The position numbers and the translations under genes were made by a program. Positions 15,376 through 35,204 of a stretch of 64,000 nucleotides of DNA are shown here, in pieces. How positions within the stretch are numbered: position 1 is the stretch's first letter; the number at the start of each line of letters is the position of its first letter. The notes under the pieces are model-generated. The model did no database searches, was not told the origin of the DNA, and saw only the letters and a list, made by a program, of their open reading frames with translations. The stretch is from Protaetiibacter intestinalis (GTDB lineage: Bacteria; Actinomycetota; Actinomycetes; Actinomycetales; Microbacteriaceae), in contig NZ_CP032630.1 of the NCBI RefSeq assembly GCF_003627075.1, forward strand, positions 2,046,001-2,110,000, in the 5' to 3' direction.

Positions 15376-15433
15376 GCGCGGCCCGCCTCGCCGGTCCCGC
15401 TCCCGGTCGTCGCGGGTGCCGCGCGCGATGCAT

Positions 15434-15447
15434 GGGGAGTTCTCCCC
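15434..15447. promoter_or_regulatory. T7SS-locus palindrome, copy 1 (GGGGAGTTCTCCCC)
   Basis: A 14-bp palindrome upstream of the phosphatase-FHA-kinase-regulator operon. A candidate -10 (TACGGT, 15482-15487) starts 34 nt after its end and a GTG with AGGGGA site follows at 15513. The same GGGGAGTnnTCCCC is found at 19956 and 34816. Proposed activator or repressor site of the locus. Confidence 0.7.
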
Positions 15448-15512
15448 GGTGCCCGCGTAGGAGGAGGGTCCGCCGGATTGCTACGGTGGGGCGGACTGCG
15501 TTGCTGAGGGGA

Positions 15513-16364
15513 GTGCCGGTGGAGGTTCGCGAGGAGTTCGCGATCGGCGACATCGCCGTGCACTTGCGCTACGCGGGCGACAGCAACGTGGGCTCGGTGC
15601 GTGCGAACAACGAGGACAGCTTCCTCGCGGCCCCGCCCTTCTGGATCGTCGCGGACGGCATGGGCGGTCACGCCCACGGCGACCTCGCGAGCCGCTCCGC
15701 GGTGCAGGCCTTCGAGGCGCTCGCGGCCGGCTCCGCGACGAACGCGCGTGCCGTCGTCGACGCCGTGCGCGCCGCGAACGCGGCCGTGCGCGAACTGCGC
15801 GAGGAGACGATCGCCGGCACGACCCTCACGGGCGTCGCGCTCGTCGACATCGAGGGCGCGGGCCCGCACTGGATGACGTTCAACGTCGGCGACTCCCGCA
15901 CCTACAGCTGGGACGGCCGCCGCCTCGAGCAGCAGAGCGTCGACCACTCGGCCGTGCAGGAGCTGCTCGACGCGGGCATCATCACCCCCGCCGAGGCGGC
16001 CGCGCATCCGCAGCGCAACGTCGTGACGCGCGCGCTCGGCGCGGAGGCGGAGGTCGAGGCGGACGTGTGGCTGCTGCCCCTGCGGGGTCGGCAGACGTTC
16101 CTGCTGTGCAGCGACGGGCTCACGAAGGAGCTCGACGACGAGGAGATCGCCCGCATCATCGTCTTCCACGACCAGCAGGCGGCGCGCGAGCCCGACGGGC
16201 CGACGCTCGCCGAGCGGCTCGTCGGGGCGGCCATCGCGGCCGGGGGACGCGATAACGTGACGGTCGTCGTGGTGGAGTCGGAGCTCGCCGGGGTGCCCGG
16301 TGAGCTCGGCGAGACCGTCGACCGCGATCCCCGCCTGTTCGAAGACACGATGCCGAGAGCCTGA
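15513..16364 (+). CDS. PP2C-family Ser/Thr protein phosphatase
   Basis: A 283-aa PPM/PP2C phosphatase that would dephosphorylate kinase targets. Metal-binding motifs are in order: SVRANNEDSF, VADGMGGHAHGD, NVGDSRTYSW, LLCSDGLTKELDDEEI, and the C-terminal GGRDNVTVVVV. No transmembrane segment, so cytoplasmic. I chose the GTG at 15513 (after TGAGGGGA); the frame is open further upstream, but that part is not conserved-looking and overlaps the palindrome. It is followed by an FHA gene (2 bp gap) and the kinase, forming a kinase/phosphatase pair. Confidence 0.9.
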   Translation: MPVEVREEFAIGDIAVHLRYAGDSNVGSVRANNEDSFLAAPPFWIVADGMGGHAHGDLASRSAVQAFEALAAGSATNARAVVDAVRAANAAVRELREETIAGTTLTGVALVDIEGAGPHWMTFNVGDSRTYSWDGRRLEQQSVDHSAVQELLDAGIITPAEAAAHPQRNVVTRALGAEAEVEADVWLLPLRGRQTFLLCSDGLTKELDDEEIARIIVFHDQQAAREPDGPTLAERLVGAAIAAGGRDNVTVVVVESELAGVPGELGETVDRDPRLFEDTMPRA

Positions 16365-16366
16365 CC

Positions 16367-17566
16367 ATGACCCATCGCTACACCGCGGCCGGTGACGGCT
16401 GGCTCGCGTTCGTCACGCCGGGGCGTCAGCTGTTCGTCGGTGCCGAGCTCGACCCGGCGGTGATCGACCGGCTCTGGGCGCGGATGCGCGACGAGCGCGG
16501 CCCCGCGGGGATCCTCGAGGCGCTCACCGCGAACGGCCTGTTCGCGACGCCGCCGTTCGCCTTCGTCGAGGCCGGCGACGGCACCGTGGGCGTCATCGTC
16601 CGCGGGGACGCGGTGGTGCGCGCGGGCGCCGAGCAGGTCTCGGGCGCCGGGGCGACCACCTGGATCGAGCGCCGGCTGCCGGGCGGTTCCGTCGGGGTCA
16701 CGCTCTCCGGCACCGGGTCGCTCGAGCTCCCGATCGAGGCGGGCGTCGTGCGCGCCGGCTCGTTCGCGAGCGGCAGCGCCGCGCTCGCGGCACCGGCACC
16801 GGCGGCACCGGCACCCGCACCGGTCGCCGAGCCCGCCGCTCCCGCGCCCGACCCGTCGCCGGCGCCCGCGCCGGCCCCCGTCGTCGCACCCGCAGCCGTC
16901 GCCGAGCCCGCACCCGCGGCACCCGAACCCGTCGCATCGGAGATCTCCGAGGAGACCGTCGTGAGCGTCGACGAGGTCGGGCTGCCGCCCGCGGCCTCCG
17001 CCGAGGACGCCGCGGCGCCCGCGGGCGGCTACGACTACCTGTTCGGCGACACGATGTACCGCTCGGTCGAGGACGCCGCGGTGCGCGCCGAGGAGCCGGA
17101 GGAGGCCGAGGAGGAGGCGCCCGCCGCCGGCGGCGACCACGACGGCAGCACCGTGCTCGCCTCCTCGATCACCCGCACGCGCGGCTCGAAGCGCGCCGCG
17201 CGCGAGGCGCCCGCCCCGCCGCCCCCCGCATCCGTCTTCGTGGTGCTGCCGAACGGCACGCGCGAGCCGCTCGACCAGGCGATCGTGATCGGCCGCGCGC
17301 CGAGCGTCTCGGGCGTGCCCGCGGCGCAGCTGCCGCGGCTCGTGACCGTCACGGGCGGCGACCAGGACATCTCGCGCTCGCACGTGCGGCTCGCGCTCGA
17401 GGGCGGCACCGTCGTCGTCACCGACCTGCACTCGCGCAACGGCACCACGATCGTGCTGCCGAACGGCGAGACCCAGAAGCTGCGCGGCGGGGAGCCGACC
17501 CCCGTGATCGTGGGCACCGTGGTGGATCTCGGCGGCGGCGTCGAGCTGCGACTCGAGGAGGTCTGA
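16367..17566 (+). CDS. FHA-domain protein with Ala/Pro-rich linker
   Basis: A 399-aa cytoplasmic protein. Residues 1-135 form a conserved-looking alpha/beta region (ending ERRLPGGSVGVTLSGTGSLELPI). Residues 145-185 are an Ala/Pro low-complexity linker, then come acidic segments. The last 100 residues are an FHA domain (VIGRAPS, DISRSHVRLAL, DLHSRNGTTI). It lies between phosphatase and kinase in one operon. The stop overlaps the kinase start (TGATG). A likely scaffold that binds phosphorylated kinase or T7SS components. Confidence 0.82.
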   Translation: MTHRYTAAGDGWLAFVTPGRQLFVGAELDPAVIDRLWARMRDERGPAGILEALTANGLFATPPFAFVEAGDGTVGVIVRGDAVVRAGAEQVSGAGATTWIERRLPGGSVGVTLSGTGSLELPIEAGVVRAGSFASGSAALAAPAPAAPAPAPVAEPAAPAPDPSPAPAPAPVVAPAAVAEPAPAAPEPVASEISEETVVSVDEVGLPPAASAEDAAAPAGGYDYLFGDTMYRSVEDAAVRAEEPEEAEEEAPAAGGDHDGSTVLASSITRTRGSKRAAREAPAPPPPASVFVVLPNGTREPLDQAIVIGRAPSVSGVPAAQLPRLVTVTGGDQDISRSHVRLALEGGTVVVTDLHSRNGTTIVLPNGETQKLRGGEPTPVIVGTVVDLGGGVELRLEEV

Positions 17567-19236
17567 TGCGTCGGCCCACGTCGTCGCCCCCCGAACTGCC
17601 CGGCTACAGCTACGTGCGGGTGCTCGGCTCGGGCGGGTTCTCGGACGTCTTCCTCTACGACCAGCAGCTGCCCAAGCGCCGCGTCGCCGTCAAGGTGCTG
17701 CTGCTCGACGAGCTCACCCCCGCCAACCGCGCCGCCTTCGTCGCCGAGGCGAACCTCATGGCGCAGCTCTCGGCGCACCCCTACATCGTCACGATCTACC
17801 ACGCCGACGTCGCCTCCGACGACCGGCCCTACTTCGTCATGGAGTACTGCTCGGGCCCGAGCCTGGGCGAGCGCTACAAGCAGGCGCCGCTCGCGGTCGC
17901 GGATGCGCTGCGCACAGGGGTGCGGCTCTCGAGCGCCGTGCAGACGGCGCACCAGGCCGGCATCCTGCACCGCGACATCAAGCCCGCCAACGTGCTCAGC
18001 AACGACTACGGGTGGCCGGCGCTCACCGACTTCGGCATCTCCTCGGCGGTCGACGACGCTCTGCCCGCCCACACGACGACCGTCGCGGGCGCGGTCGGCG
18101 ACACGAGCACGAGCGGTACGAGCGGTCAGGTGGGCCTCTCGGTGCCGTGGTCGCCGCCCGAGATGTTCGAGGACGATCCCGATCCGGACGTGCGCAGCGA
18201 CGTGTTCTCGCTCGCCGCGACGATCTGGACGGTGCTGGCAGGCCAGACCCCCTTCGAGGTGAAGGGTCGCGGCAACGGCACCCTCGACCTCATCGGCCGG
18301 ATCGAGCGCGGTGCGATCACCCCGATGGACCGCACCGACATCCCGCGCTCGCTCATCGCGGTGCTGCAGAAGGGCATGGCGACCGAACGCGAGGACCGCT
18401 TCGCGAGCGCCCTCGACTTCGGGCGCGCGCTGCAGCGGGTCGAGATGGAGCTGGGCTACGCGCGCACCGAGCTCGAGGTGCCGAACCTGCACCTCGAGGC
18501 GCCCGAGCGGCCCGCCGACACCGGGGGAGCGGACGAGACCCGCGTGCGGCAGGTGGCGACGATCGAGGCGCAGCCTGTCGCCGCAGCCCCGCCGCCCGGC
18601 GGCGCCGACGAGACGCGCGTGCGGTCGACGACCACGATCGAGGCGCAGCCGTCCGCAGCCCACGTCTCCATGCCGCCGGCCGCCCCGTCGGCACCGGTCA
18701 CCCCGCCTGTCGTCGTCGACGCACTGCCGTCCGAGACGGTCGTGCGGCCGCGCGGACCCGCGCCGCAGCAGCCGCCGCCGGCTCAGGTGGAGTCGGTCGA
18801 CCCCGCGCCCACGCGCTCGGGCCGCGGACGCGTCGTCGGCATCGTCGTGGGTGTGCTCGCGGCGCTCGTGGTCGCGGCCGTGGTCGTCGGGATCGTGCTG
18901 TTCGGGGGATCGCCCGAGGAGGCGGGGCCGACGCCCGGGGCCAGCTCGAGTCCCGACGCCGTCGTGCCGACGATCATCCCGGTGCCGGAGCTCGCCTCCG
19001 CGGCGACCGCCGAGGGCACGGTCGTCACCTTCCCGGTGACGAACCCCGACCCCGAGGACGGCGACCGGCTCGTGTGGCGGCTCAGCCGGGCAGACCAGCC
19101 CCAGTTGAAGACCGCCGAGGGGGATGCCGTGGTCGTCGACGGCTACACCGAGGGCACGCCGCTGTGCGTCGACATCATGATCCTCCGCGCCGGTAAGACG
19201 TCGGATCCGCTCACGACCTGCTACCCGCCCGCATGA
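17566..19236 (+). CDS. Transmembrane serine/threonine protein kinase (PknB-like)
   Basis: A 556-aa Hanks-type kinase: kinase domain at residues 12-290 with GSGGFSDVF P-loop, catalytic Lys about 43 (RVAVKVLL), HRDIKPANV (Asp about 137) and DFGISS. A Pro/Ala-rich juxtamembrane region of about 120 residues follows, one transmembrane helix at about 422-446, and a 100-residue extracytoplasmic domain without PASTA repeats. The juxtamembrane part has two copies of a motif, GADETRVR..., each followed by TIEAQP (about 321-336 and 346-361), good candidates for autophosphorylated FHA docking sites. Translationally coupled on both sides (TGATG, ATGA). Confidence 0.9.
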   Translation: MRRPTSSPPELPGYSYVRVLGSGGFSDVFLYDQQLPKRRVAVKVLLLDELTPANRAAFVAEANLMAQLSAHPYIVTIYHADVASDDRPYFVMEYCSGPSLGERYKQAPLAVADALRTGVRLSSAVQTAHQAGILHRDIKPANVLSNDYGWPALTDFGISSAVDDALPAHTTTVAGAVGDTSTSGTSGQVGLSVPWSPPEMFEDDPDPDVRSDVFSLAATIWTVLAGQTPFEVKGRGNGTLDLIGRIERGAITPMDRTDIPRSLIAVLQKGMATEREDRFASALDFGRALQRVEMELGYARTELEVPNLHLEAPERPADTGGADETRVRQVATIEAQPVAAAPPPGGADETRVRSTTTIEAQPSAAHVSMPPAAPSAPVTPPVVVDALPSETVVRPRGPAPQQPPPAQVESVDPAPTRSGRGRVVGIVVGVLAALVVAAVVVGIVLFGGSPEEAGPTPGASSSPDAVVPTIIPVPELASAATAEGTVVTFPVTNPDPEDGDRLVWRLSRADQPQLKTAEGDAVVVDGYTEGTPLCVDIMILRAGKTSDPLTTCYPPA

Positions 19237-19964
19237 GCACCGCCCTCCGCATCGAGTTCTGCGGCGAGCGGTACACCGCGACGCCGGGGGAGACGTTCGT
19301 CATCGGCCGCGAGGGCGACCTCGAGATCGACGACAACCCCTACCTGCACCGCCGCTTCCTCGCCATCGACGAGGAGCGGGGACTGTGGTGGATCAGCAAC
19401 GTCGGCAGCCTGCTCTCCGCCACGATCACCGACGGCTCGGGCGGGGTGCAGGCCTGGCTGCCGCCCGGTGCCCGGCTGCCCGTCGTGTTCCCGCTCGTGC
19501 AGGTGCTGTTCAGCGCGGGCTCCACCACCTACGACTTCACGATCGAGAACGACGAGCAGTACTTCTCGACGACCAACATCCACTCGGGCGCATCCGGCAC
19601 GACGACGATCGGCGTGGTGCCGCTCACCAGCTCGCAGCGCCTGCTCGTCGTGGCGCTGTCCGAGCACGTGCTGCGGCAGGATTCCCCCGGCCGTGGCGAG
19701 ATCCCGAGCTCGGCGGAGGCGGCGGAGCGTCTCGGTTGGCCGCTCACGACGTTCAACCGCAAACTCGACAACGTGTGCGAGAAGCTCGACAAGGTGGGCG
19801 TGCAGGGGCTGCGCGGAGGCCGTGGCAAGCTCGCCACCAACCGCCGTGCGCGGCTCGTCGAGTACGCCGTCGCGAGCCACCTGGTGAGCCGCGAGGACCT
19901 CGTGCTGCTCGACCGCAACACCTCCGCGGGAGCCGCGGCGCACGCGGATGGGGATGGGGAGTAG
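19233..19964 (+). CDS. FHA-like plus helix-turn-helix protein, candidate regulator of the T7SS locus
   Basis: A 243-aa soluble protein. Residues 1-100 look like an FHA-type beta-sandwich (FVIGREGDLEIDDN, LHRRFLAID). Residues 130-215 look like a winged helix-turn-helix DNA-binding domain (LTSSQRLLVVALSEHVL, then SAEAAERLGWPLTTFNRKLDNVCEKL). It is the last gene of the phosphatase-kinase operon, coupled to the kinase by ATGA. It is the only DNA-binding-looking protein of the locus, so it is the best candidate to bind the GGGGAGTnnTCCCC sites, one of which overlaps its own stop codon. A kinase-to-FHA signal could control it; this is inference. Confidence 0.75.
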   Translation: MSTALRIEFCGERYTATPGETFVIGREGDLEIDDNPYLHRRFLAIDEERGLWWISNVGSLLSATITDGSGGVQAWLPPGARLPVVFPLVQVLFSAGSTTYDFTIENDEQYFSTTNIHSGASGTTTIGVVPLTSSQRLLVVALSEHVLRQDSPGRGEIPSSAEAAERLGWPLTTFNRKLDNVCEKLDKVGVQGLRGGRGKLATNRRARLVEYAVASHLVSREDLVLLDRNTSAGAAAHADGDGE

Positions 19965-19969
19965 TCCCC
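19956..19969. promoter_or_regulatory. T7SS-locus palindrome, copy 2 (GGGGAGTAGTCCCC)
   Basis: It overlaps the stop codon of the FHA-HTH gene and precedes the surface-protein operon. A candidate -10, TAGCCT (20004-20009), starts 34 nt after its end, the same spacing as copy 1. No good -35 is seen, consistent with activator dependence. Confidence 0.7.
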
Positions 19970-20070
19970 GTTCGCGGGCAGAAAACGAACAGCGCTCGCA
20001 TGTTAGCCTGAACCGGCTCGACCCCGGACGGGGGCAGACAACACGCGATTCCGAGGGGTGATCTCAGCAC

Positions 20071-23000
20071 GTGATGGGGGGGATCCAGCGCGCGCGCCGC
20101 AAGACGATCGCATCCGCGGCGGTCGTCGCACTCGTCGCCGGCGGCACGCTGACGGTGGCCGCGCTGCACCCCGGATTCCCGGTGACGGATGTCGACCTCA
20201 CCTCCCGCGACGTCTGGGTGACGAACGCCGAGCAGCAGCTCGGCGGGCGGCTCAACCGCCAGATCGACGAGCTCAACGGCTCGGTCACGGCGGCCTCCCC
20301 GAACTTCGAGGTGCTGCAGGACGGCGACGCGCTGTTCCTCGTCGACCCCGACAACCTGCACCTCGAGTCGGTCGACCCGGCCACCACCTCCGTCACGAGC
20401 TCCGTCGACCTGCCGGCCGATGCGGAGGTCAGCTACGGGGGCGACGTGCTCGCCGTGGTCTCCGGCGGCAAGCTCTGGGCGCTGCCCGCGGTCGGCGACC
20501 TGCAGCTCAACACCGTCTCCCAACCTCCGCTGCTCGACCTCGGCAAGGGCGGCCACGCGGTCGTCACCGCGAGCGGGGCGATCGTCGCGGTCTCCCCGCA
20601 GGACAAGACGCTCTACCGCATCCCGACCCTCGCCGACGTGCCCGTCGAATCCGCCTTCCCGAAGATCGGCGACTTCCAGCTCGCGGCGATCGGCGAGACC
20701 GTCGTGGCCCTCGACACCTCCACCAACGAGCTCGTCACCGAGGACGGCACCGTCCGCCCGCTCGGCGACGAGCGCGCCCTGAAGCTCCAGCAGAGCGGCC
20801 CGGCCTCCGAGTTCGCGATCCTCGCGACCGGCGCGGGGCTGCTGCGGGTCGCCCTCGGTTCGGGCGAGGTCGAGACCCTGGATGCCGGGGGCGCCTCCTC
20901 GAACGACCCCGACGACGTGGCGGCCCCCGTCAACCTCGACGGCTGCGCGCACGGCGCCTGGGCGCACGCGCAGCTGTACATGCTGGCGTGCCAGGGCCAG
21001 CAGCCGGCGACGCAGGACATCGAGCAGCCGACCGCGGGCGACCGCCTCGAGTTCCGGGTCAACCGCAGCATCGTGGTGCTCAACAACCTCAGCAACGGCA
21101 ACGTCTGGGTGCCGTCCGAGAACATGCGTCTCGTCGACAACTGGGACGACATCACGCCGCCCGAGCAGGAGGAGACCGAGGAGGAGGGCGACGAGAAGTC
21201 GGCGCTGCAGTCCTTCGAGGACACCCTCGCCGAGCGCACCGACGAGAACCGCGACCCGACCGCCGTCGACGACGCGTTCGGTGCGCGCCCCGGCCGCACC
21301 ACGATCCTCTCGGTGCTCGACAACGACTCCGACCCGGACGGCGACGTGCTCATCGTCTCGGAGTTCGGGTCGGTCGCCGAGAGCTCCGGCACCCTCGACC
21401 TCATCGACGGCGACCGGGCACTGCAGTTCACGCCGTCGCCCACGGCCTCCGGCACCCTCCACTTCAGCTACACCGTCGACGACGGACGCGGGGGTCACGC
21501 GACCGCGCAGGTCTCGGTGCACGTCGTCCCCGAGGGGTCGAACGAGGCGCCCGTCGAGCTCCGACGCTCGGCCGTGACGGTCGAGGCCAACCAGACCGTC
21601 GAGTACAACGTGCTCGCCAACTGGCGCGACCCCGACGGCGACGACATGATCGTGGTCGGCGCGGCCCCGACCTCGGGCGACCTCGTGCAGTTCACGCCCG
21701 ACGGCGTCATCACCTTCACGCACCAGACCTCGGAGCTCGGCGAGAAGGAGGTGCAGTTCCAGGTCTCGGACGGCACCGACGGCGGCATCACGACCGGCAC
21801 GCTCACCGTGACGGTGCAGCCCGCCGGATCGCAGAAGCCCGTCGGCACGCCCGACTTCGCCACCGCGTTCACGGGTGAGGAGATCACCCTCAAGCCGCTC
21901 GGCAACGACATCTCGCCCTCGGGCGCGCTGCTCGCGATCACGGGGATCGAGGACCCGGGCGAGGGCGCGTCGGCGACACTCGACACCGACAAGAACGCGG
22001 TGCGCTTCAGTGCCTCGAAGGCCGACGTCTACTACTTCGAGTACACCCTGGTCGGCAACGGCATCCCGAGCGTCGGCATCATCCGGGTCGACGTCAAGGA
22101 CGTCCCGGCCGAGCAGGCCCTGCCGCCCATCGCGGTGAAGGACACGGCCTATCTGCGCGGCGACCAACCCACCACCGTCTCGGTGCTCACCAACGACGTG
22201 AGCCCGGCGGGGCGCATCCTCGCGGTGCAGAGCATCCAGGTGCCGCCCGAGCTCACCGCGAAGGGCGTCGTCGTCGAACTGCTCGAGGCGACCCAGGTGC
22301 GGATCACCTCCCCGCAGGCGCTCACCTCGCAGGTGAGCTTCACCTACACGATCTCCGACGGCCTGAACACGGCGACGGCGGGCGTGACCGTCGTGCCGGT
22401 CGCCCCGCTCACCAAGCACCAGCCGCCCGTCGCCCTCGACGACTTCGTCACCGTGCGGGCCGGCGACATCGTCACGGTCGACGTGCTCGCCAACGACCGG
22501 CACCCCGACGACTCGCGGATGTTCCTCGACGAGGCGCTCATCGCCGAGCCGAGCGCGGGCATCGCCTTCGTGAGCGACGACAAGGTGCGCTTCCAGGCGC
22601 CGACCGAGCCCGGCCAGTACCGCGCCGACTACCGCGTGCTCGACGCCTACGGCGAGTCGGCCGCGGCGAGCGTCGTCTTCACGGTGACGCCGTTCTCGGA
22701 GGACGGCAACCGCGACCCGAAGCCCGAACCCGTCGTGGCGCGGGTGCTCGCGGGCGGCACCATCACGATCCCGCTGCCCCTGCAGCAGATCGACCCCGAC
22801 GGCGACTCGACCCAGCTGCTGCGGTTCCCGACCGGCCCCACCCTGGGCAGCATCACGGATCAGGGCGAGGACTTCTTCGAGTACACCGCCTCGCCCGCGG
22901 CATCCGGCACCGACACCTTCAGCTACCAGGTCTACGACACCTTCGGCGCCACGGGCACGGCCGAGATCCGCATCGCCGTCATCCCGCAGCCCGACGAGCC

Positions 23001-25662: not shown

Positions 25663-25676
25663 AACGAGAGAGAGAC

Positions 25677-26645
25677 ATGCCCGTCACCCAGGAGCAGGCG
25701 ACCTGGTTCGCCGACGCCTTCCAGAAGCTCGTCGCGAACGTCGACAAGGCGATCGTCGGCAAGGACCACGTCATCACGCTCGTGCTGACCGCCCTCATCT
25801 CCGACGGCCACGTGCTGCTCGAGGACTACCCGGGCACCGGCAAGACGGTGCTCGCGAAGTCGCTCGCTAACACCCTCGACGGCACGACGAGCCGCATCCA
25901 GTTCACGCCCGACCTGCTGCCCTCCGACGTCACGGGCGTGCAGATCTACGACCAGGGCAAGGGGCGCTTCCAGTTCCACCCGGGCCCGATCTTCGCCTCG
26001 ATCGTGCTCGCCGACGAGATCAACCGCGCCTCGCCGAAGACCCAGTCGGCACTGCTCGAGGTCATGGAGGAGGGCGTCGTCACGATCGACGGCGAGGGTC
26101 ACGCCGTCGGTGCCCCGTTCCTCGTCATCGCGACCCAGAACCCGGTCGAGCAGGCCGGAACGTACAAGCTGCCCGAGGCGCAGCTCGACCGCTTCCTCAT
26201 CAAGACGAGCCTCGGCTACCCGGACACGAAGACCGCGGTCAGCCTGCTGATGGACTCCTCGACGCGTGCCCGCGCCTCGCTCGTCTCGCCCATCATCAAG
26301 CCCGAGTCGATCGTCGCGATGAGCGCGCTCGCCTCCGAGGTGCACGTCGACGAGGCCGTCATGCAGTACCTCTCCGACATCGTCGACGCGACGCGCAAGC
26401 ACCGCGACGTCGTGCTCGGCGTGAGCATGCGCGGCGCCATGGCGCTCGCGCGCGCCGTGAGGACCTGGGCGATCTCGAAGGGTCGCAGCTACGTGACGCC
26501 CGACGACGTGCGCGAGCTCGCCGTGCCGGTGCTCGCCCACCGCCTCGTCATCGACCCCGAGTCGGACTTCGCGGGCGTCAAGGCCGAGGACGTCGTCTCG
26601 CGCATCCTCGTCGACATCGAGCCCCCGGCCTACCGCGCCGCCTGA
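25677..26645 (+). CDS. MoxR-family AAA+ ATPase
   Basis: A 322-aa cytoplasmic MoxR ATPase: Walker A EDYPGTGKT near residue 50, Walker B SIVLADEINRA, sensor-1 VIATQNP, and the MoxR C-terminal lid. MoxR proteins act as chaperones, usually with DUF58/von Willebrand partners encoded next door, as here. The ATG at 25677 is preceded by GAGAGAGA; the frame is open further upstream but overlaps the surface-protein gene. Gap to the next gene 4 bp. Confidence 0.92.
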   Translation: MPVTQEQATWFADAFQKLVANVDKAIVGKDHVITLVLTALISDGHVLLEDYPGTGKTVLAKSLANTLDGTTSRIQFTPDLLPSDVTGVQIYDQGKGRFQFHPGPIFASIVLADEINRASPKTQSALLEVMEEGVVTIDGEGHAVGAPFLVIATQNPVEQAGTYKLPEAQLDRFLIKTSLGYPDTKTAVSLLMDSSTRARASLVSPIIKPESIVAMSALASEVHVDEAVMQYLSDIVDATRKHRDVVLGVSMRGAMALARAVRTWAISKGRSYVTPDDVRELAVPVLAHRLVIDPESDFAGVKAEDVVSRILVDIEPPAYRAA

Positions 26646-26649
26646 ACGC

Positions 26650-27939
26650 ATGACCATCGCCACCCGACTCGACACCGCGACCGCCCTGCTGCGCCCCGCG
26701 GGCGCGAGCCTGCGCCGCTTCGGCACGGGCGTCGCGAACGTCGTGCGACCCGCGGCGCGGGTCGTGTGGCGGATCGTCGGGCCGGTGCTGCGGGTCATCA
26801 CGGGGGCCGGCTGGGTCGTGCTCGGCCTCGGGGCGCTCGCGATCGTGCTGAGCCTCGTGTTCGACTGGCAGGAGTTCACCTTCCTCGGCTTCGTGCTGCT
26901 CGCCTCCGTCGTCGTGGCCGCGTTCTTCCTCGTCGGGCGCTCGAGCTACGGCGTGCTCATCGAGCTCAACCCGCGTCGCGTCGTCGTCGGCGAGCGGGCG
27001 ATGGGCCGCATGGTGGTCACCAACACGGGCGCGCGCCGACTCGCGCCGACCCGCATGGAGCTGCCCGTCGGCAAGGGCGTCGCCGAGTTCCAGCTGCCGG
27101 CGATGACGCCCAAGCAGGAGGAGGAGGAGCTCTTCCAGGTGCCCACCAACCGGCGTGCCGTCATCGTCGCGGGCCCGGTGGAGTCGATCCGGGGCGACCA
27201 GCTCGGCCTGCTGCGCCGTGCCGTGAAGTGGGCGGATGCCGTGGACCTGTTCGTGCATCCGCGGACGGTGCGTCTGGCCTCCTCGGCCGCGGGCCTCGTG
27301 CGCGATCTCGAGGGCCAGGTGTCGTCGAAGATCACCAACAACGACCTCGCCTTCCACGCGCTGCGCCCCTACGTGCCGGGCGACGACCGCCGCTACGTGC
27401 ACTGGCGCACCTCGGCGCGCATCGGGCAGCTCATGGTGCGCCAGTTCCAGGAGACCCGGCGCTCGCAGATCATCGTCGTGCAGCCGACCGGCGCCCAGTT
27501 CTTCGCGGGCGAGGACGAGTTCGAGCTCGCCGTCTCGGCGGCCGCGTCGATCGCCTCGCAGATCATCCGCGACGGCACCCAGCTCGACGTCGTGAGCGAG
27601 GCCGGGCCGTGGCGCACCCGCACCGTGACCTCGATGCTCGACTCCTCGAGCCGTCTCGAGTACGGCCACACGGGCGGCTTCACGACGCTGCGCGACCTCG
27701 TGCGCGAGCGCACCAAGCGCCTGCCCGCCCCGAGCGTCGTCGTGACGGTCGGCGGTTCGAAGCTGTCGCCCGGCGACATCCGCAGCGTGCAGACGCTGTT
27801 CGGCTCGGACACCACCCACCTCGGTGTCACCGCCGAGCTCGGCGCCCAGCCGCGGCTCGGCTCGGTCGCGGGGATGACGATGCTCACCGTCGGCCGGCTC
27901 GAGGACCTGCCCGGCCTGTTCCGAGGGCTCAGCTCGTGA
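26650..27939 (+). CDS. DUF58-domain membrane protein
   Basis: 429 aa. Two transmembrane helices (residues about 55-95) after a 50-residue cytoplasmic N-terminus. A beta-rich domain follows, then the DUF58 signature with ALRPYVPGDDRRYVHWRTSAR at about residue 237 and a vWA-like C-terminus. DUF58 proteins pair with MoxR ATPases and transglutaminase-like proteins; all three occur here in order. The stop overlaps the next start (GTGA). Confidence 0.9.
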   Translation: MTIATRLDTATALLRPAGASLRRFGTGVANVVRPAARVVWRIVGPVLRVITGAGWVVLGLGALAIVLSLVFDWQEFTFLGFVLLASVVVAAFFLVGRSSYGVLIELNPRRVVVGERAMGRMVVTNTGARRLAPTRMELPVGKGVAEFQLPAMTPKQEEEELFQVPTNRRAVIVAGPVESIRGDQLGLLRRAVKWADAVDLFVHPRTVRLASSAAGLVRDLEGQVSSKITNNDLAFHALRPYVPGDDRRYVHWRTSARIGQLMVRQFQETRRSQIIVVQPTGAQFFAGEDEFELAVSAAASIASQIIRDGTQLDVVSEAGPWRTRTVTSMLDSSSRLEYGHTGGFTTLRDLVRERTKRLPAPSVVVTVGGSKLSPGDIRSVQTLFGSDTTHLGVTAELGAQPRLGSVAGMTMLTVGRLEDLPGLFRGLSS

Positions 27940-30314
27940 CCGCCGCGACCACGACCGCCGCGGCATCCGCCCCCCGCACCTCGGCGCTCGCCTGGCCCGG
28001 GGGTCGCACCTGGCTCGACATCACCGTGCTGCTGGCGCTCGCCGCGCTCGGCGTCATCGGCTTCACCCCGTCGTACGGCGGCTACAGCTTCCTCGCGGCC
28101 GGGATCGGCGGGCTCGTGCTCGGCGCGCTCACGGGCGTGTTCACGAGCGTCTTCCGGCTCGGCGGGCTGCTGACCTTCGCGGTGGCGATCGTCGGGTACT
28201 TCGTCGTGGGCTCGGCGGTCGCGGTGCCGAGCCAGACGATCTTCGGCGTCGTGCCGACGCTGCAGTCGCTCGCGAGCCTCGCGATCGGCACGGTCTACGG
28301 CTGGGCGGACCTGCTCACGCTCTCGACCCCGGTCGGCGCACCCGCCTACATCGCCGTCGTCCCGTACGCCGCGAGCTGGGTCGTCGCCCTCGTCTCGACC
28401 CTGCTCGCGACGCGTTGGCTGGCCCACCGGCCGCGCACGGCCTGGCGGTTCGGGGTGGCCCTCGTGCCCGCGACCGTGCTCTACCTGGTGGGCATCCTGG
28501 TGGGCACCGACGAGGCGTACCAGGCCGGCATCCGCGGCGTCGCCTTCGCGGTGCTCGTGCTCGTCTGGCTCGGCTGGCGCACGCCCGTCGGCGGCGTCGC
28601 CGCGACGGCCGACCGCTCGCTGCTCACCCGCAAGATCGCGGGGACGGTCGCCGTGGTGCTCGTCGCCGTGCTCGCGGGCGGGGCGGCCGGATACTGGCTC
28701 GCCCCCGCGAAGGACCAGCGCTTCGTGCTGCGCGACGAGATCGAGCCGCCCTTCGACCCGCTCGACTATCCGAGCCCCCTCGCCGGCTACCGGCACTTCA
28801 CCAAGCAGGTGGACGAGGAGGAGCAGTTCACGGCGACCGGGCTGCAGCCGGGCGACCGCATCCGCATGGCGACCCTCGACTCCTACACCGGCAAGCTCTG
28901 GAACGTCACCGACTCGAACGCGAGCGCGGCAGGGTCGGGCTCGTACGAGCTCGTCGGCCGGAGCCTGCCGTCCGCGCCCCTCGTGACCCCGGTGGCGCAC
29001 CCCGAGGTCGACATCACGATCACCGGCTACCAGGACGTCTGGGTGCCGGGCGTCGGCTATCCCACCGACTTCGAGCTCACCGGCGGCGAGGCGAAGACGC
29101 ACTCCGACGACCTGCGCTACAACGCCTCCACAGGCAGCATGGTGCTCACCACGGGGCTGCACGAGGGCGACAGCTACCGCATCGACGCGGTGACCCAGGA
29201 GGCGCCGAGCATCGAGGAGCTGTCGTCGGTCCCGGTGGCGAACGTCGAGCTGCCGCCCGTGACGGGCGTGCCCGACATCGTGTCGTCGAAGGCCCAGGAG
29301 TGGGCCACCGGTGCCGTCTCGCCCGCCGAGCAGCTCGAGGCGATCCGGCTGAAGTTCGTGACCACAGGCTTCCTCAGCCACGGGCGCGCCTCCGACGCGG
29401 TGCCCTCACGTGCCGGACACGGCGCCGACCGGATCTCGGACCTGCTCGACGCCACCCAGATGATCGGCGACGAGGAGCAGTACACCTCGGCCTTCGCCCT
29501 CATGGCGCGCAGTCTCGGCTACCCGGCGCGCGTCGTCATGGGCTTCGCCCCGGAGGTCGGCGAGGGCGGCGGCACCGTCTCGGTCACCGGCGACGACGTC
29601 ACCGCGTGGGTCGAGGTGGCCTTCGAGGGGGTCGGCTGGGTGCCGTTCGACCCGACGCCCGACGAGACCGACATCCCGCAGGACCAGGTGCCGAAGCCGC
29701 AGAGCGAGCCGCAGCCGCAGGTGCGCCAGCCCCCGCGCTCCGACAAGGAGCCGGAGGACCTGCTCACGCCCGTCGAGCTCGAGAAGCAGGACCCGGACGA
29801 GGACGACGTCGACTTCGTCATCCCCGGCTGGGCCTACGGGGTGGGCATCGGCCTCGTCTCGCTGCTCGCGGTGGTGTTCGTACCGCTGCTCATCGTGGGG
29901 ACGGTGAAGGCCCGTCGCCTGCGCAAGCGCCGCCGCGGACCCGTCGCCGACCAGGCGGCCGGCGCCTGGGAGGAGCTCGCCGACCGGTACTCCGAGCTCG
30001 GCTACCAGGTGCCGCCGAAGCTCACCCGGCCGCTGCTCGCCTCGCGCCTCGAGGCGCAGTTCCCGGCGAGCGAGCAGCAGGCGCCGCCGCGCCTGCGGGT
30101 GCTCGCCTCCGAGACCGACGAGCTCGTCTTCTCCGGCCGCGAGGGTGCCGCCGAGGAGGGGACGGCGCTGTGGGATGACGCCCTCGGCGCCGTGGGCGCC
30201 GCCCGCGCCGCAGCCCCCGCGCGCGTGCGCCTGCTCAGCCGCTACCGCATCCGATCCGCACGCGACCTCGCGGCGCGCCTCACCACCACCGCACCGCGAA
30301 GGAGCGAGCACTGA
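27936..30314 (+). CDS. Transglutaminase-fold membrane protein lacking catalytic Cys and His
   Basis: 792 aa, with TgpA-like layout. Residues 20-270 hold about six transmembrane helices. An extracytoplasmic transglutaminase-like domain spans about 300-600, one more helix lies near 630, and the tail is cytoplasmic. In the transglutaminase core the usual GFCEHYASAFA is replaced by DEEQYTSAFA, so Glu513 stands where the nucleophilic Cys should be. The usual HAWVEV is TAWVEV, so Thr556 replaces the catalytic His. The third-site Asp572 (FDPTP) and ARVVMGF are kept. It is therefore probably a structural or peptide-binding pseudoenzyme. The GTG start overlaps the DUF58 stop. The end overlaps the EccC start (CTGA). 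Confidence 0.85.
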   Translation: MTAATTTAAASAPRTSALAWPGGRTWLDITVLLALAALGVIGFTPSYGGYSFLAAGIGGLVLGALTGVFTSVFRLGGLLTFAVAIVGYFVVGSAVAVPSQTIFGVVPTLQSLASLAIGTVYGWADLLTLSTPVGAPAYIAVVPYAASWVVALVSTLLATRWLAHRPRTAWRFGVALVPATVLYLVGILVGTDEAYQAGIRGVAFAVLVLVWLGWRTPVGGVAATADRSLLTRKIAGTVAVVLVAVLAGGAAGYWLAPAKDQRFVLRDEIEPPFDPLDYPSPLAGYRHFTKQVDEEEQFTATGLQPGDRIRMATLDSYTGKLWNVTDSNASAAGSGSYELVGRSLPSAPLVTPVAHPEVDITITGYQDVWVPGVGYPTDFELTGGEAKTHSDDLRYNASTGSMVLTTGLHEGDSYRIDAVTQEAPSIEELSSVPVANVELPPVTGVPDIVSSKAQEWATGAVSPAEQLEAIRLKFVTTGFLSHGRASDAVPSRAGHGADRISDLLDATQMIGDEEQYTSAFALMARSLGYPARVVMGFAPEVGEGGGTVSVTGDDVTAWVEVAFEGVGWVPFDPTPDETDIPQDQVPKPQSEPQPQVRQPPRSDKEPEDLLTPVELEKQDPDEDDVDFVIPGWAYGVGIGLVSLLAVVFVPLLIVGTVKARRLRKRRRGPVADQAAGAWEELADRYSELGYQVPPKLTRPLLASRLEAQFPASEQQAPPRLRVLASETDELVFSGREGAAEEGTALWDDALGAVGAARAAAPARVRLLSRYRIRSARDLAARLTTTAPRRSEH

Positions 30315-33300
30315 AACTCAAGCTGACCCTCCAGCGGCCCTCCGGGCCCGAGGCCGACATCGTCGTCACCGCGGACGCCGGCGCCACCGTCGCCGACGTC
30401 GCCGCCGGAATCCAGGCGCGCGACCCCTACCTCGCCAAGCTCGGCGCGACGTCGGGCGGTCCGGTCACGCTGACCGTCACCGACGCAGGCGGGACGGCGC
30501 CTCGGGTGCTCGACGCCGACTTCGCGATCGCAGAGGCGGCCGTCGGTTCGGGCGCGACGATCTCGATCGTGCCGGAGGGCACGAGCGTGCAGCCCGCGAA
30601 GACGGCCGCGGCCGCGAAACTCGTCGTCGTCGAGGGGCCGGATGCCGGTGCCGAGTTCGCGCTCGTGCCCGGCACCGTCTTCATCGGCCGCGACGCGGCG
30701 AGCGCCGACCTGGTGCTCGCCGACTCGCTCGTGTCGAAGCGCCACGCTCGTGTCGACGTGTTCAGTCACGCCATCCGCCTCGTCGACCTCAACTCCGCCA
30801 ACGGCATCGAGGTCGACGGAGGGCTCGTGACGCGCGTCGACCTCGAGGATGGCGACACGGTGCGTCTCGGCGACACGGTGCTGCGGGCCGCGATCTCCGC
30901 GCCCGTCGCGGCCGCCCCTTCCGGACCGCCGCCCGGCCCGATCGCCTTCAACCGTTCGCCGCGCGTCGAGTCGCGTTACCCCGGGCAGGAGTTCGCGGCC
31001 CCCGCGCCGCCCGCCGAGCAGGACGCGCAGCCCTTCCCCTGGCTCGCGCTCGTCGCCCCGCTCGCGATCGGCGTCGTCGGCATCTTCTTCATGAACCGCA
31101 ACCCCGCGATGCTGCTCCTCGTGCTCGCCTCGCCGATCCTCATGCTCGGCACCTGGTGGACGGCGCGCTCGACCCGCAAACGCAAGCGCAAACTCGACAT
31201 CGAGAACTTCGACGCCCGATCCGAGGCGCTCGAGAAGACCCTCGCCGAGGAGGTCGAGCGCGAGCGCGCCGTGCGCCTCGCCGAGAGCCCGTCGACGGCC
31301 GAGGTGTACCAGCAGGCGCTCGAGCTCGGCCCGCTGCTATGGACCCGTCGGCCCGAGCATTGGCAGTTCCTCTCGGTCAACCTCGGCATCGGCACCATGG
31401 AGTCGCGCAACCGGGTGACGAGTTCCAAGGAGGACACCGGACTCCCCGAGTACGTCGAGCGGGTCAAGAAGACCCAGGACGCCTACCGCCACATCGCGGG
31501 CGTACCCGTCACCGAGAACCTGTACTTCTCGGGTGCGCTCGGCATCGCGGGACCGCAGCCGGTCGCCGCGGACGCCGCGCGCGGTCTGATCGTGCAGCTC
31601 GCGGGGCTGCACTCGCCCGCCGAGCTCGTGGTGGCCGCCGTCGTCTCGAGCACCTGGACGAACGAGTTCGAGTGGCTCAAGTGGTTGCCGCACACGGCAT
31701 CCCCGCACAGCCCCCTCGATGCCGTGCACCTCGCCAACAGCCAGGCGACCGGCGGAGCCCTGCTCTCGGCCATCGAGGAGCTCATCGCCACCCGCGCGAA
31801 GGACCGCGAGCTGCGCGGCGCCAAGATGCTCGAGAAGTCCGCGCTCGTCGCGGGAGCGTCGGCCGGCGACGGCGCGGACGAGGTCGCCCCGCCACCCGCG
31901 GCCACGCCGGCGGTCGCGCTGCTCATCTCCGACGACGCCCCCGTCGACCGCGCGCGCCTCGTGCAGCTCGCGGAGCGCGCCGCCGACGCGGGCGTGTACC
32001 CGATCTGGGTCTCTCCGGCGCAGGCGCAGCTGCCCGCCGTCGCCCGCACCTACGTCGCGTTCGGCGACGATTCGACCGCCCAGGTCGGTCTCGTCCGGCT
32101 GGGCGACGCGATCACCGACGTGCGCACCGAGCCGGTCACGCGCGAGCAGGCCCTGTGGTTCGCCCGTCGTCTCGCCCCCGTGACGGATGCGGGCGCCCTC
32201 GTCGAGGACTCGAGCGACCTGCCGCGATCGATCATGATGCTCTCCCTCGTCGGCCCGTCGCTCGCGACGAGCCCCTCGGCGGCGGTGGGTCGCTGGCGGG
32301 AGAACGACTCCATCCACGACCGCTCCGGCGGGCCGCTCGTGCGGCGCCGCGCCGGCAAGCTGCGTGCGATCGTCGGCTCGGCGGGCGTCGACGCGATGCA
32401 CCTCGACCTTCGCACCCAGGGACCGCACGCCCTCGTCGGCGGCACCACCGGATCCGGCAAGTCGGAGTTCCTGCAGGCCTGGGTGCTCGGCATGGCGGCC
32501 GAGTACAGCCCCGACCGGGTCACCTTCCTGTTCGTGGACTACAAGGGCGGCTCGGCGTTCGCCGACTGCGTCGCCCTGCCGCACTGCGTCGGCCTCGTCA
32601 CCGACCTGAGCCCGCACCTCGTGCGCCGCGCCCTCACCTCGCTGCGCGCCGAGCTGCACCACCGCGAGCACCTCTTCAACCGCAAGAAGGCGAAGGACCT
32701 CCTCGACCTCGAGAAGCGCGGCGACCCGGATGCGCCTCCCGCTCTCGTGCTCGTCATCGACGAGTTCGCGGCTCTCGCGGGCGAGGTGCCGGAGTTCGTG
32801 GACGGCGTCGTCGACATCGCCCAGCGCGGGCGCTCGCTCGGCATCCACCTCATCATGGCCACCCAGCGCCCCGCGGGTGTCATCAAGGACAACCTGCGCG
32901 CCAACACCAACCTGCGCATCGCGCTGCGGATGGCCGACGAGTCGGACTCGATGGACGTCGTGGGCGACAAGATCGCCGGCACCTTCGACCCCTCGATCCC
33001 CGGGCGCGGCATCGCGAAGACCGGCCCCGGGCGGCTCACCCCCTTCCAGTCCGCGTACGCGGGCGGCTGGACGAGCGACACCCCCGTCGCGCCGAGCGTC
33101 GAGGTGGCCGAGCTGCGCTTCGGAGCCGAGCACCAGTGGGAGCAGCCCGGCAAGGACGAGGCGGTCGCCGCCGAGACGCAGGCGGATCCCGGCCCCACCG
33201 ACCAGGCCCGGCTCGTCGCGAACCTCATCGCCGCGGCGGGCGAGGCGCGCATCCCGGCGCCGCGGCGTCCGTGGCTCGACGAGCTGGCCCCCGTCTTCGA

Positions 33301-34804
33301 CCTCACCCGGCTGCACCAGCGCACCGACGCCGAGCTCGTGCTCGGCGTGGTCGACCTGCCGCAGCTGCAGCGCCAGCAGGAGGTCGTGTTCCGCCCCGAC
33401 GTCGACGGCCACATCGCGTACTACGGCGCAGGCGGCGCGGGCAAGACGGTCGCGCTCCGCAGTCTCGCCGCCGCGGCCGGCATCACCCCGCGCGGCGGCC
33501 CCGTCGACGTGTACGGCCTCGACTTCGGCACCGGCGGGCTCCGGATGCTGGAGGCGCTCCCGCACGTCGGCTCGATCGTCTCGGGCGACGACCCCGAGCG
33601 CGTCGTGCGGCTGCTGCGGCTGCTGCGCGACGAGCTCGAGCGCCGCAGCGCGGCGTACACGGCCGTCGATGCGGGCTCCATCGTCGACTACCGGCGGATC
33701 GCGGGCATGCCCGAGGAGCGACGCATCCTGCTGCTCGTGGACAACTTCCCGTCGTTCAAGAACGATTTCGAGATCGGTGCGACGCGCGCCCCCTGGTACG
33801 GCGTGTTCCAGCAGATCCTGGGGGAGGGGCGCGGCCTCGGCATGCACGTGGCGATCACCGCCGACCGTCCGGGTTCGGTGCCCACGGGCATCTCCTCGGC
33901 ATTCCAGCGCCGGGTGGCGCTGCGTCTCGCCGACGAGGGCGGCTACATGCTGCTCGATGCACCTGCCGACATCCTCTCGGCCTCCTCGCCCCCCGGCCGC
34001 GCCGTCATCGACGGGGCCGAGGCACAGCTCGCGATCGTGGGCGGCGAGGTCGGCGTGGCGGAGCAGGCGAAGGCGATCACGGCGCTCGGCGAGGCGATCC
34101 GCCGCACCGGGCGCGCCGAGGCCGCCGAGGTCGGCACCCTCGGCACCGAGATCCCCGCGGCGACGCTTCCCTCAGAGGTCGGGGGGCTGCCGGTGCTGGG
34201 CGTCTCCGACGACACGCTCCAGCCGGTGGGCTTCGAGCCCTCGGGGGCGATCGTGCTCTCGGGGCCCCCCGCCTCGGGCCGCACCAACGCGCTGCGCTGG
34301 CTCATCGCATCCGTCGCGCGCGCGCACCCGAAGATCGCCCGTTACTACTTCGGATCGCCCCGCTCGGAGATCGGACAGCGGCCGGGGTGGGAGGCGAAGG
34401 CGCTCACCGTCGAGGATGCCGCCGCGCTCGCCAAGGAGGTGACGGCGACCGTCGCCGAGACAGGCGGTGACGAGAAGATCCTGGTGGTCATCGAGCAGAT
34501 CGGCGACTTCCTCTCGACCTCCGCGGACTCGGCCATGGTCGAGATGATCAAGGCGATCAAGCGCAGCGACCACCTGCTGATCGCCGAGAACGAGAGCGGT
34601 GGCTGGGGCTCGTCCTGGCCGCTCCTGCAGGAGGTCAAGGCGGCGCGCACGGGCTTCCTGCTGCAACCGGAGTCGATGGAGGGCGACACGATCCTCAAGA
34701 CCTCGCTGCCCCGCGTCTCGCGTGGGGACTTCCCGCCCGGCCGCGGGTTCTTCATCGCCCGTGGCAAGGCGGTACGAGTTCAGCTGCCGCTCGCGCCGGA
34801 CTGA
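30311..34804 (+). CDS. eccC: EccC/EssC-type T7SS ATPase with N-terminal ubiquitin-like and FHA domains
   Basis: 1497 aa with the proposed CTG start. Residues 1-90 look ubiquitin/YukD-like (KLKLTLQRPSGPEADIVV). Residues 105-190 are an FHA domain (FIGRDAASADL, SKRHARVDV, DLNSANGIEV). Two transmembrane helices lie at about 241-285, then three FtsK/SpoIIIE P-loop modules. Module 1 is complete (GGTTGSGKSE, Lys717; LVLVIDEFAAL). Module 2 has GAGGAGKT (Lys1045) and ILLLVDNF. Module 3 has GPPASGRT with Arg1324 instead of Lys. This is the motor of ESX/T7 secretion; the FHA fusion recalls firmicute EssC. CTG is the only candidate with an AAGGAG site 6 nt upstream and it overlaps the previous stop; the next start, GTG at 30506, would cut the ubiquitin-like domain. 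Confidence 0.9.
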   Translation: MKLKLTLQRPSGPEADIVVTADAGATVADVAAGIQARDPYLAKLGATSGGPVTLTVTDAGGTAPRVLDADFAIAEAAVGSGATISIVPEGTSVQPAKTAAAAKLVVVEGPDAGAEFALVPGTVFIGRDAASADLVLADSLVSKRHARVDVFSHAIRLVDLNSANGIEVDGGLVTRVDLEDGDTVRLGDTVLRAAISAPVAAAPSGPPPGPIAFNRSPRVESRYPGQEFAAPAPPAEQDAQPFPWLALVAPLAIGVVGIFFMNRNPAMLLLVLASPILMLGTWWTARSTRKRKRKLDIENFDARSEALEKTLAEEVERERAVRLAESPSTAEVYQQALELGPLLWTRRPEHWQFLSVNLGIGTMESRNRVTSSKEDTGLPEYVERVKKTQDAYRHIAGVPVTENLYFSGALGIAGPQPVAADAARGLIVQLAGLHSPAELVVAAVVSSTWTNEFEWLKWLPHTASPHSPLDAVHLANSQATGGALLSAIEELIATRAKDRELRGAKMLEKSALVAGASAGDGADEVAPPPAATPAVALLISDDAPVDRARLVQLAERAADAGVYPIWVSPAQAQLPAVARTYVAFGDDSTAQVGLVRLGDAITDVRTEPVTREQALWFARRLAPVTDAGALVEDSSDLPRSIMMLSLVGPSLATSPSAAVGRWRENDSIHDRSGGPLVRRRAGKLRAIVGSAGVDAMHLDLRTQGPHALVGGTTGSGKSEFLQAWVLGMAAEYSPDRVTFLFVDYKGGSAFADCVALPHCVGLVTDLSPHLVRRALTSLRAELHHREHLFNRKKAKDLLDLEKRGDPDAPPALVLVIDEFAALAGEVPEFVDGVVDIAQRGRSLGIHLIMATQRPAGVIKDNLRANTNLRIALRMADESDSMDVVGDKIAGTFDPSIPGRGIAKTGPGRLTPFQSAYAGGWTSDTPVAPSVEVAELRFGAEHQWEQPGKDEAVAAETQADPGPTDQARLVANLIAAAGEARIPAPRRPWLDELAPVFDLTRLHQRTDAELVLGVVDLPQLQRQQEVVFRPDVDGHIAYYGAGGAGKTVALRSLAAAAGITPRGGPVDVYGLDFGTGGLRMLEALPHVGSIVSGDDPERVVRLLRLLRDELERRSAAYTAVDAGSIVDYRRIAGMPEERRILLLVDNFPSFKNDFEIGATRAPWYGVFQQILGEGRGLGMHVAITADRPGSVPTGISSAFQRRVALRLADEGGYMLLDAPADILSASSPPGRAVIDGAEAQLAIVGGEVGVAEQAKAITALGEAIRRTGRAEAAEVGTLGTEIPAATLPSEVGGLPVLGVSDDTLQPVGFEPSGAIVLSGPPASGRTNALRWLIASVARAHPKIARYYFGSPRSEIGQRPGWEAKALTVEDAAALAKEVTATVAETGGDEKILVVIEQIGDFLSTSADSAMVEMIKAIKRSDHLLIAENESGGWGSSWPLLQEVKAARTGFLLQPESMEGDTILKTSLPRVSRGDFPPGRGFFIARGKAVRVQLPLAPD

Positions 34805-34815
34805 GGAGACGCCAT

Positions 34816-34829
34816 GGGGAGTCATCCCC
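34816..34829. promoter_or_regulatory. T7SS-locus palindrome, copy 3 (GGGGAGTCATCCCC)
   Basis: It lies 11 bp after the eccC stop and before the WXG100 operon. The symmetry extends to ATGGGGAGTCATCCCCAT. A candidate -10, TACTGT (34854-34859), starts 24 nt after it, one helical turn closer than at copies 1 and 2. Confidence 0.7.
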
Positions 34830-34907
34830 ATCGACGCTTGCTCAACAATTGAATACTGTCGAAGACACCAGCCCCCGTGCCTCGCGGGAACCACTAGAAG
34901 GAGCATC

Positions 34908-35204
34908 ATGGCCAACCTCAACGTCACCTACGACGAGCTTCGCGACGCCGCCCGCCGTCTCCAGGCCGGCAAGGACGACCTGCACTCGAAGCTCGCCGAG
35001 CTGTCGAACCTCGTGCAGTCGCTCACCGCCTCCGGCTTCCAGGCCGAGCAGTCGTCTGCCGCGTACCGCGACTCGTTCGAGCAGTTCCGCACGGGCACCT
35101 CGCAGGCCATCGACGGCCTGGAGGGCCTCGCCAACTTCCTCGTCTCGGCGGCCGACGCGCTGCAGCAGACCGACGAGGGCCTGGCCAACGCCATCCGCGG
35201 CTAG
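34908..35204 (+). CDS. WXG100-family (EsxA-like) secreted protein
   Basis: A 98-aa all-helical hairpin protein, the expected small substrate of EccC. The turn between helices reads TASGFQAEQSSAAY, where the usual Trp-x-Gly is degenerate but the flanking pattern of actinobacterial WXG100 proteins is kept. The second helix has SFEQFRTGTSQAIDGLEGLANFL. The ATG has an AGAAGGAG site. A hairpin follows the stop, which may make this gene more abundant than those downstream. Frame-open sequence upstream of the ATG overlaps eccC and is not part of the gene. Confidence 0.92.
   Translation: MANLNVTYDELRDAARRLQAGKDDLHSKLAELSNLVQSLTASGFQAEQSSAAYRDSFEQFRTGTSQAIDGLEGLANFLVSAADALQQTDEGLANAIRG

Follow-up and report, generated by a model that had tools for sequence, protein, structure and literature searches.

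The 64-kb window considered here (the whole stretch of positions 2,046,001 to 2,110,000 of contig NZ_CP032630.1 of Protaetiibacter intestinalis) encodes a secretion system that, judged from its genes, resembles the type VII secretion system d (T7SSd), and the question that this locus raises is how the expression of such a system is controlled. A preliminary description of this DNA had drawn attention to a palindrome ahead of three transcription units of the system and proposed that it was a regulon operator. In agreement with it, an exact search locates GGGGAGTNNTCCCC at positions 15434, 19956, and 34816, all on the + strand, with no further exact copy in the window, and none of 100 shuffled sequences (0/100) gave three copies. 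As the letters AT precede all three copies, the operator is longer than the motif noted earlier, the full palindrome being an 18-bp sequence of the form ATGGGGA-N4-TCCCCAT. Operator 1, ATGGGGAGTTCTCCCCGG (15432..15449, core 15434-15447, + strand), lies ahead of an operon comprised of genes for a PP2C phosphatase, an FHA protein, a Ser/Thr kinase and a protein with FHA and helix-turn-helix (HTH) parts, referred to below as P0002. Operator 2, ATGGGGAGTAGTCCCCGT (19954..19971, core 19956-19969, + strand), overlaps the stop codon of the P0002 gene and precedes a second operon, which encodes an Ig/fn3 surface protein, a MoxR-type ATPase, a DUF58 protein, a membrane protein with a transglutaminase core and an FHA-FtsK ATPase. 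Operator 3, ATGGGGAGTCATCCCCAT (34814..34831, core 34816-34829, + strand), is found ahead of a third operon starting with a WXG100 protein. The limits of these operons were inferred from gene spacing. Our verdict, from comparisons of sequences, is that the palindrome appears to be a real activator operator that defines a T7SSd-like regulon.

The position of the palindrome relative to the promoters is fixed, as is characteristic of a regulon operator. In the window, candidate -10 boxes TACGGT (15482..15487, + strand) and TAGCCT (20004..20009, + strand), both with an extended TG, start 34 nt past cores 1 and 2, respectively, and TACTGT (34854..34859, + strand) starts 24 nt past core 3; these distances are the same as those reported previously. 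The accompanying statement that a good -35 is lacking throughout applies to sites 1 and 2, where the best matches are 2/6 and 3/6; site 3 (4/6) has a weak -35, TCGACG, which overlaps the operator edge at a 17-nt spacing. The geometry was determined for 106 unique sites from related loci that had full flanks, which were picked by the palindrome alone, ignoring promoters, and with duplicates removed. In these sites, TANNNT starts at 23, 24, 25, and 26 nt past the core in 2, 33, 41, and 3 cases, and at 33, 34, and 35 nt in 1, 15, and 3 cases, whereas the remaining 68 offsets have 0–2 cases each and 11 in total. A phased box (at 23–26 or 33–36 nt) is thus present at 95 of the 106 sites, at two of them in both directions, and it is lacking at the other 11. 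Extended -10 TG is found in all 18 far-class promoters (18/18) versus 21/79 of the near class; in the latter, 41/79 have a weak -35 (4/6 match) touching the operator, compared with 11/79 reaching at least 4/6 when the spacers were shuffled, or 16% when the two operator letters were kept. Hence, near-class promoters tend to retain a weak -35 beside the operator, while the far class relies on the extended -10.

Taking the -10 start as position -12, the operator centers lie at about -43.5 and -53.5. These two distances, one DNA turn apart, fit the arrangement of an activator that contacts RNA polymerase from one face, and the activator and helical phasing that had been postulated from three sites are borne out by the larger set. 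A repressor operator, at which a bound dimer blocks the promoter until it is relieved, as EspM acts on whiB6 in mycobacteria, was also considered. EspM, which has FHA and HTH parts, is described as a repressor in the available parts of two reports (PMC7002343, PMC11005418) and an operator centered at -43.5 reaches into the -35 region; both points speak for repression. However, strict phasing at two positions, together with a -35 that is weak or absent and an extended -10 where the site lies one turn further away, is what an activator needs, and phasing would gain a repressor little, so that we consider repression very unlikely. Because the sequences that separate the operator from the -10 show little conservation, except for ATCG beside near-class operators and the extended -10 of far-class promoters, a conserved spacer or mRNA element was set aside; Rfam has no family in the window.

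The palindrome is highly specific in its sequence as well as in its position. In 131 sequence sources, some of whose loci are the same DNA so that the total includes duplicates, GGGGA-N4-TCCCC occurs 118 times, versus 1–4 times for every other spacer of 0–8. This excess greatly surpasses chance. The fixed promoter distances at related loci bear out the interpretation of the palindrome as a regulon operator. The genome to which the window belongs (3.10 Mb, one contig) contains four exact copies in all, and the reversed control pattern gives none; genome-wide, the exact pattern is rare, and its copies cluster at the secretion system. The fourth copy (G000:C1:1041419, locus L001) sits between divergent genes and has no phased -10 in either direction; it was rejected as a fourth member of the regulon in this genome and is best taken as a chance occurrence. 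A near-palindrome outside the system, found with a looser pattern at 361428, is also unphased and was rejected, and the same pattern has two further, less symmetric matches outside the system at 1707000 and 2021726. Two further readings, that the palindrome is a -35-like sequence recognized by an alternative sigma factor or that it is a random repeat in a G+C-rich genome where by an estimate from base composition the exact pattern is expected about 1–2 times, are in our view scarcely credible. Chance is ruled out by the shuffles, by the reversed controls, which gave 0, and by the other spacers, which remain at the background of 1–4, and a sigma factor is not expected to tolerate a shift of 10 bp.

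Among 60 relatives, exact copies often follow the ATPase gene immediately or lie at the surface-protein promoter, about 10.5 kb ahead of the ATPase gene. We also examined 80 loci centered on P0002 homologs, which are the best 80 of 154. Exact copies number 33, in 28 of these loci, while nine control patterns give 0–3. The looser form ATGGG-N8-CCCAT, with the exact form excluded, is found 24 times, versus 0–3 for twelve other lengths. The motif as first written is real but slightly too narrow, since its GT is preferred and not fixed, and the operator comes closer to ATGGG-n-A-N4-T-n-CCCAT. A weight matrix built from operator sites and combined with the phased -10, which was trained partly on the loci to which it was applied, detects a site in 63/80 loci at the loosest cut and 57/80 at the strictest, and none in reversed sequences, a zero control that serves as the safeguard for the overlap in training. 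Sorted by place into overlapping classes, 10 loci carry a site upstream of the signaling operon, 33 carry one directly behind P0002, and 27 carry one elsewhere, in most cases at a further distance of 4.7 to 6 or 8.7 to 10.4 kb. Conservation upstream of orthologous loci is therefore seen in most relatives and fails in some. In one genome (G053), tandem operator pairs were observed (L161, 5168-5205, and L162, 5199-5256) whose starts are 24 and 44 bp apart, and in another (G195, L244) a second, imperfect palindrome lies beside the site.

The distribution of the operator also points to a candidate for the protein that binds it. ATGGGGANNNNTCCCC is present in 27/60 genomes and P0002 in 27/60, both of them in 25, giving a co-occurrence of 25/2/2/31 (p 2e-12, with kinship handled only by a one-per-genus count), that is, agreement in 56 of the 60. 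The ATPase was rejected as a better correlate of the site: in 39 genomes with an ATPase relative (best match at least 337 bits; counted by hand), all 24 with P0002 have the site (24/24), as opposed to 1/15 of those lacking P0002. In 246 genomes of the class, the site was detected in 14/18 with a strong P0002 homolog (E below 1e-30) versus 44/228 others, the latter including 14 genomes with weak P0002 matches and having among their site carriers many large genomes with single copies. After removal of seven genomes common to the set of 60, the values are 10/14 versus 44/225 (p 8e-5, kinship again being treated only by counting one per genus). Outside the order, a site is found within 4.5 kb of P0002 in G102, G148, and G195; G148 has three sites, of which both fetched ones are phased, the one in G195 is phased, and neither of the two in G102 is.

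It could also be that the operator is real and activating, but that its binder is another regulator encoded elsewhere, such as a NarL-type response regulator, P0002 only modulating it or co-occurring with it. Several results weigh on this side and against P0002. Four of the 60 genomes break the co-occurrence, two of which (G033 and G036) have the site and no P0002, and a crude motif scan in G036 revealed no divergent FHA-HTH gene near the ATPase. Of the 80 P0002 loci, 17 show no phased site in the available stretch, five of them having an unphased operator-like palindrome and a few being short contigs. Several loci from Arthrobacter and Cryobacterium with full flanks have no nearby site, and the same is true of others, though the helix of P0002 is conserved where aligned. 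A different operator in these groups was sought as same-geometry palindromes with a phased -10, and nothing shared was seen. On the other side, besides the agreement across genomes and the proximity of sites to P0002 outside the order, no other DNA-binding family was detected among the genes of the system in the window that were scanned with Pfam, a scan which did not cover every open reading frame (ORF). We consider a binder other than P0002 unlikely.

The predicted structure of P0002 consists of an FHA domain and a LuxR/NarL-like helical DNA-binding domain. In Pfam searches with E up to 10, the helical part gave no LuxR/GerE profile match and only weak HTH_8 matches, in 13/35 members (best 0.023). 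NCBIfam has no family for this protein and no convincing solved relative was found by sequence (best E 0.11). With LuxR/NarL-type activators such as DosR, LiaR, VraR, and GerE, P0002 shares the predicted DNA-binding fold and a palindromic site at a class II-like position, but it differs from them in having an FHA domain in the place of the sensor. The LuxR/NarL-type proteins among its structural matches carry receiver, ligand-binding or no sensor domains. Based upon co-occurrence and the predicted fold, P0002 is likely the binder of the operator and the best candidate for it.

Taken together, we hold it probable that the palindrome is the operator of an activator, most likely P0002 (19233-19964), which switches on the T7SSd-like system as one regulon. 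The regulon would comprise a signaling operon (phosphatase, FHA protein, kinase, and regulator), a machine operon (surface protein to ATPase) and a substrate operon (WXG100 protein and partners). An activator dimer would be centered either about 43.5 bp ahead of the start, where it overlaps the usual -35 position, or about 53.5 bp ahead of it, a helical turn farther away; once bound, it would compensate for the weak or absent -35 in a promoter of the housekeeping type. As P0002 is the last gene of the first operon, it would raise its own level. In other proteins the FHA domain reads phospho-threonine. The computations show the operator, its phasing, the two promoter classes, their conservation, the co-occurrence with P0002 and the predicted folds; that P0002 binds the operator, that it activates transcription and that it is controlled by phosphorylation we infer. 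The kinase and phosphatase of the first operon would set its activity, perhaps through Thr125, which is invariant in the P0002 linker.

The genes which form these operons are all on the + strand. The ATG at 15432, with which operator 1 opens, is mechanically the first start of the phosphatase ORF; we take the start to be further down, at about 15519, and thus operator 1 is upstream of this gene (15519..16364, assumed start codon GTG 15519; PP2C_2, 8e-11). It is followed by the protein with a C-terminal FHA domain (16367..17566; domain profile match), the TsdD-like Ser/Thr kinase (17566..19236; HRD 135, DFG 155, one hydrophobic segment within about 418–453) and P0002 (19233..19964), the proposed activator on account of the homolog search, co-occurrence and predicted fold. 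The kinase tail after the hydrophobic segment is taken to be extracellular. Between the kinase domain and this segment are two repeats, GGADETRVR...TIEAQP, whose DETR parts are possible phospho-threonine sites for FHA domains. In the second operon, the large TsdI-like surface protein (20071..25662) has Ig/fn3 profile matches and an N-terminal hydrophobic segment, and domain profile matches identify the MoxR-type AAA ATPase (25638..26645), the DUF58 protein (26650..27939), the transglutaminase-core membrane protein (27936..30314; Transglut_core, 8.7e-16) and the TsdC/EccC-like FHA-FtsK/SpoIIIE ATPase (30506..34804). Position 30506 is the first ATG/GTG/TTG start of this last ORF; an alternative CTG at 30311, 65 codons earlier and behind AAGGAG (window 30299-30313), is perhaps the true start. 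The TsdA-like WXG100 protein (34908..35204; WXG100, 8.3e-16) has no Trp, and hence no literal W-x-G.

These features resemble those of the T7SSd of Olsenella and Bifidobacterium (Garrett, Higginson, Palmer 2024; PMC11217815), which as described in the available passages has an FHA-bearing ATPase, a WXG100 protein, a membrane kinase and a large Ig-repeat protein. An FtsK-type ATPase with an N-terminal FHA domain (TsdC), a WXG100 protein (TsdA), and a Ser/Thr kinase with a membrane segment (TsdD) are all found here. TsdI is a large Ig-repeat protein that has a signal peptide and a C-terminal membrane helix; in the TsdI-like protein here, Ig/fn3 repeats and an N-terminal hydrophobic segment were detected, and a simple hydropathy scan shows no C-terminal membrane segment. 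The locus goes beyond that description in its PP2C, FHA protein, MoxR, DUF58, and transglutaminase genes. The same passages name no transcriptional regulator or operator for T7SSd. In gene content only, the kinase, fn3, MoxR-type ATPase, DUF58, and transglutaminase genes are shared with the PFNA cluster of bifidobacteria (pkb2, fn3, aaa-atp, duf58, tgm), which in the available parts of PMC8430577 is treated as sensing host signals and not as a secretion regulon. EspM (Rv3863/MMAR_5438), encoded beside the mycobacterial ESX-1 that it regulates, resembles P0002, as modeled, in its domain order of N-terminal FHA and C-terminal HTH. It differs in that its C-terminal part spans about 237 residues and contains two HTH domains, and in its reported action as a repressor through whiB6, and ESX-1 is a T7SSa, unlike the system here; the word palindrome is absent from the main texts of PMC7002343 and PMC11005418 as available. 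No earlier account of the operator or regulator was found in the PubMed Central literature, outside of which lie preprints and most subscription papers, and EspM is the nearest regulator on record there; as far as found the operator is undescribed, as had been suggested.

In relatives, the same operator would also mark WXG-type proteins encoded far from the system. Sites outside the core loci were examined in forty surrounding stretches, together with L161 and L162. In 9 of the 24 phased distal directions, an ORF that starts at most 300 nt away contains W-x-G near residues 35–65 (random-place control, 1821/20000; p 1.6e-4), one of which (L228) looks wrong-frame; the other 15/24 have none. Of the unphased distal sites that score for such an ORF, L232 seems genuine, and the rest seem to be chance matches. 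In G047, four of eleven distal stretches have a phased site before a WXG-type ORF, and in G041 and G059 the core loci examined contain no site, yet one is kept before an unlinked WXG-type gene. At further distal sites, the gene that follows is lipoprotein-like or encodes an SH3-type secreted protein (named by eye), and for some no secreted product is apparent. It is thus likely, on the sequences, that the operator also marks secreted proteins elsewhere in these genomes. Unlinked operator-led genes at L199, L200, L204, L206, L220, L230, and L232 have in common an N-terminal [FI]-x-GAD-x3-LR, followed by W-x-G-x-D-x3-F-x3-W (read by eye), and their products are a candidate T7SSd substrate family. 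The phased operators ahead of secreted SH3-like proteins (again named by eye) at L162 and L211 (G053) suggest an envelope branch of the regulon.

More tentatively, and with somewhat less than even confidence, P0002 may found a class of kinase-read activators with FHA in place of a NarL-type receiver, in which phospho-threonine (perhaps Thr125 or the DETR repeats of the kinase) would drive dimerization on ATGGGGA-N4-TCCCCAT, the operator being a genome-wide tag of T7SSd substrates in many Actinomycetes. In the literature searched, T7SSd is known from comparisons of genomes, and no description of how it is controlled was found. A sharp operator now provides a candidate regulator, promoters, and a route to substrates without known sequence, and the question can be tested with a single protein and a single short DNA. 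The operator also hints at how Ser/Thr kinase signaling may reach transcription in these bacteria.
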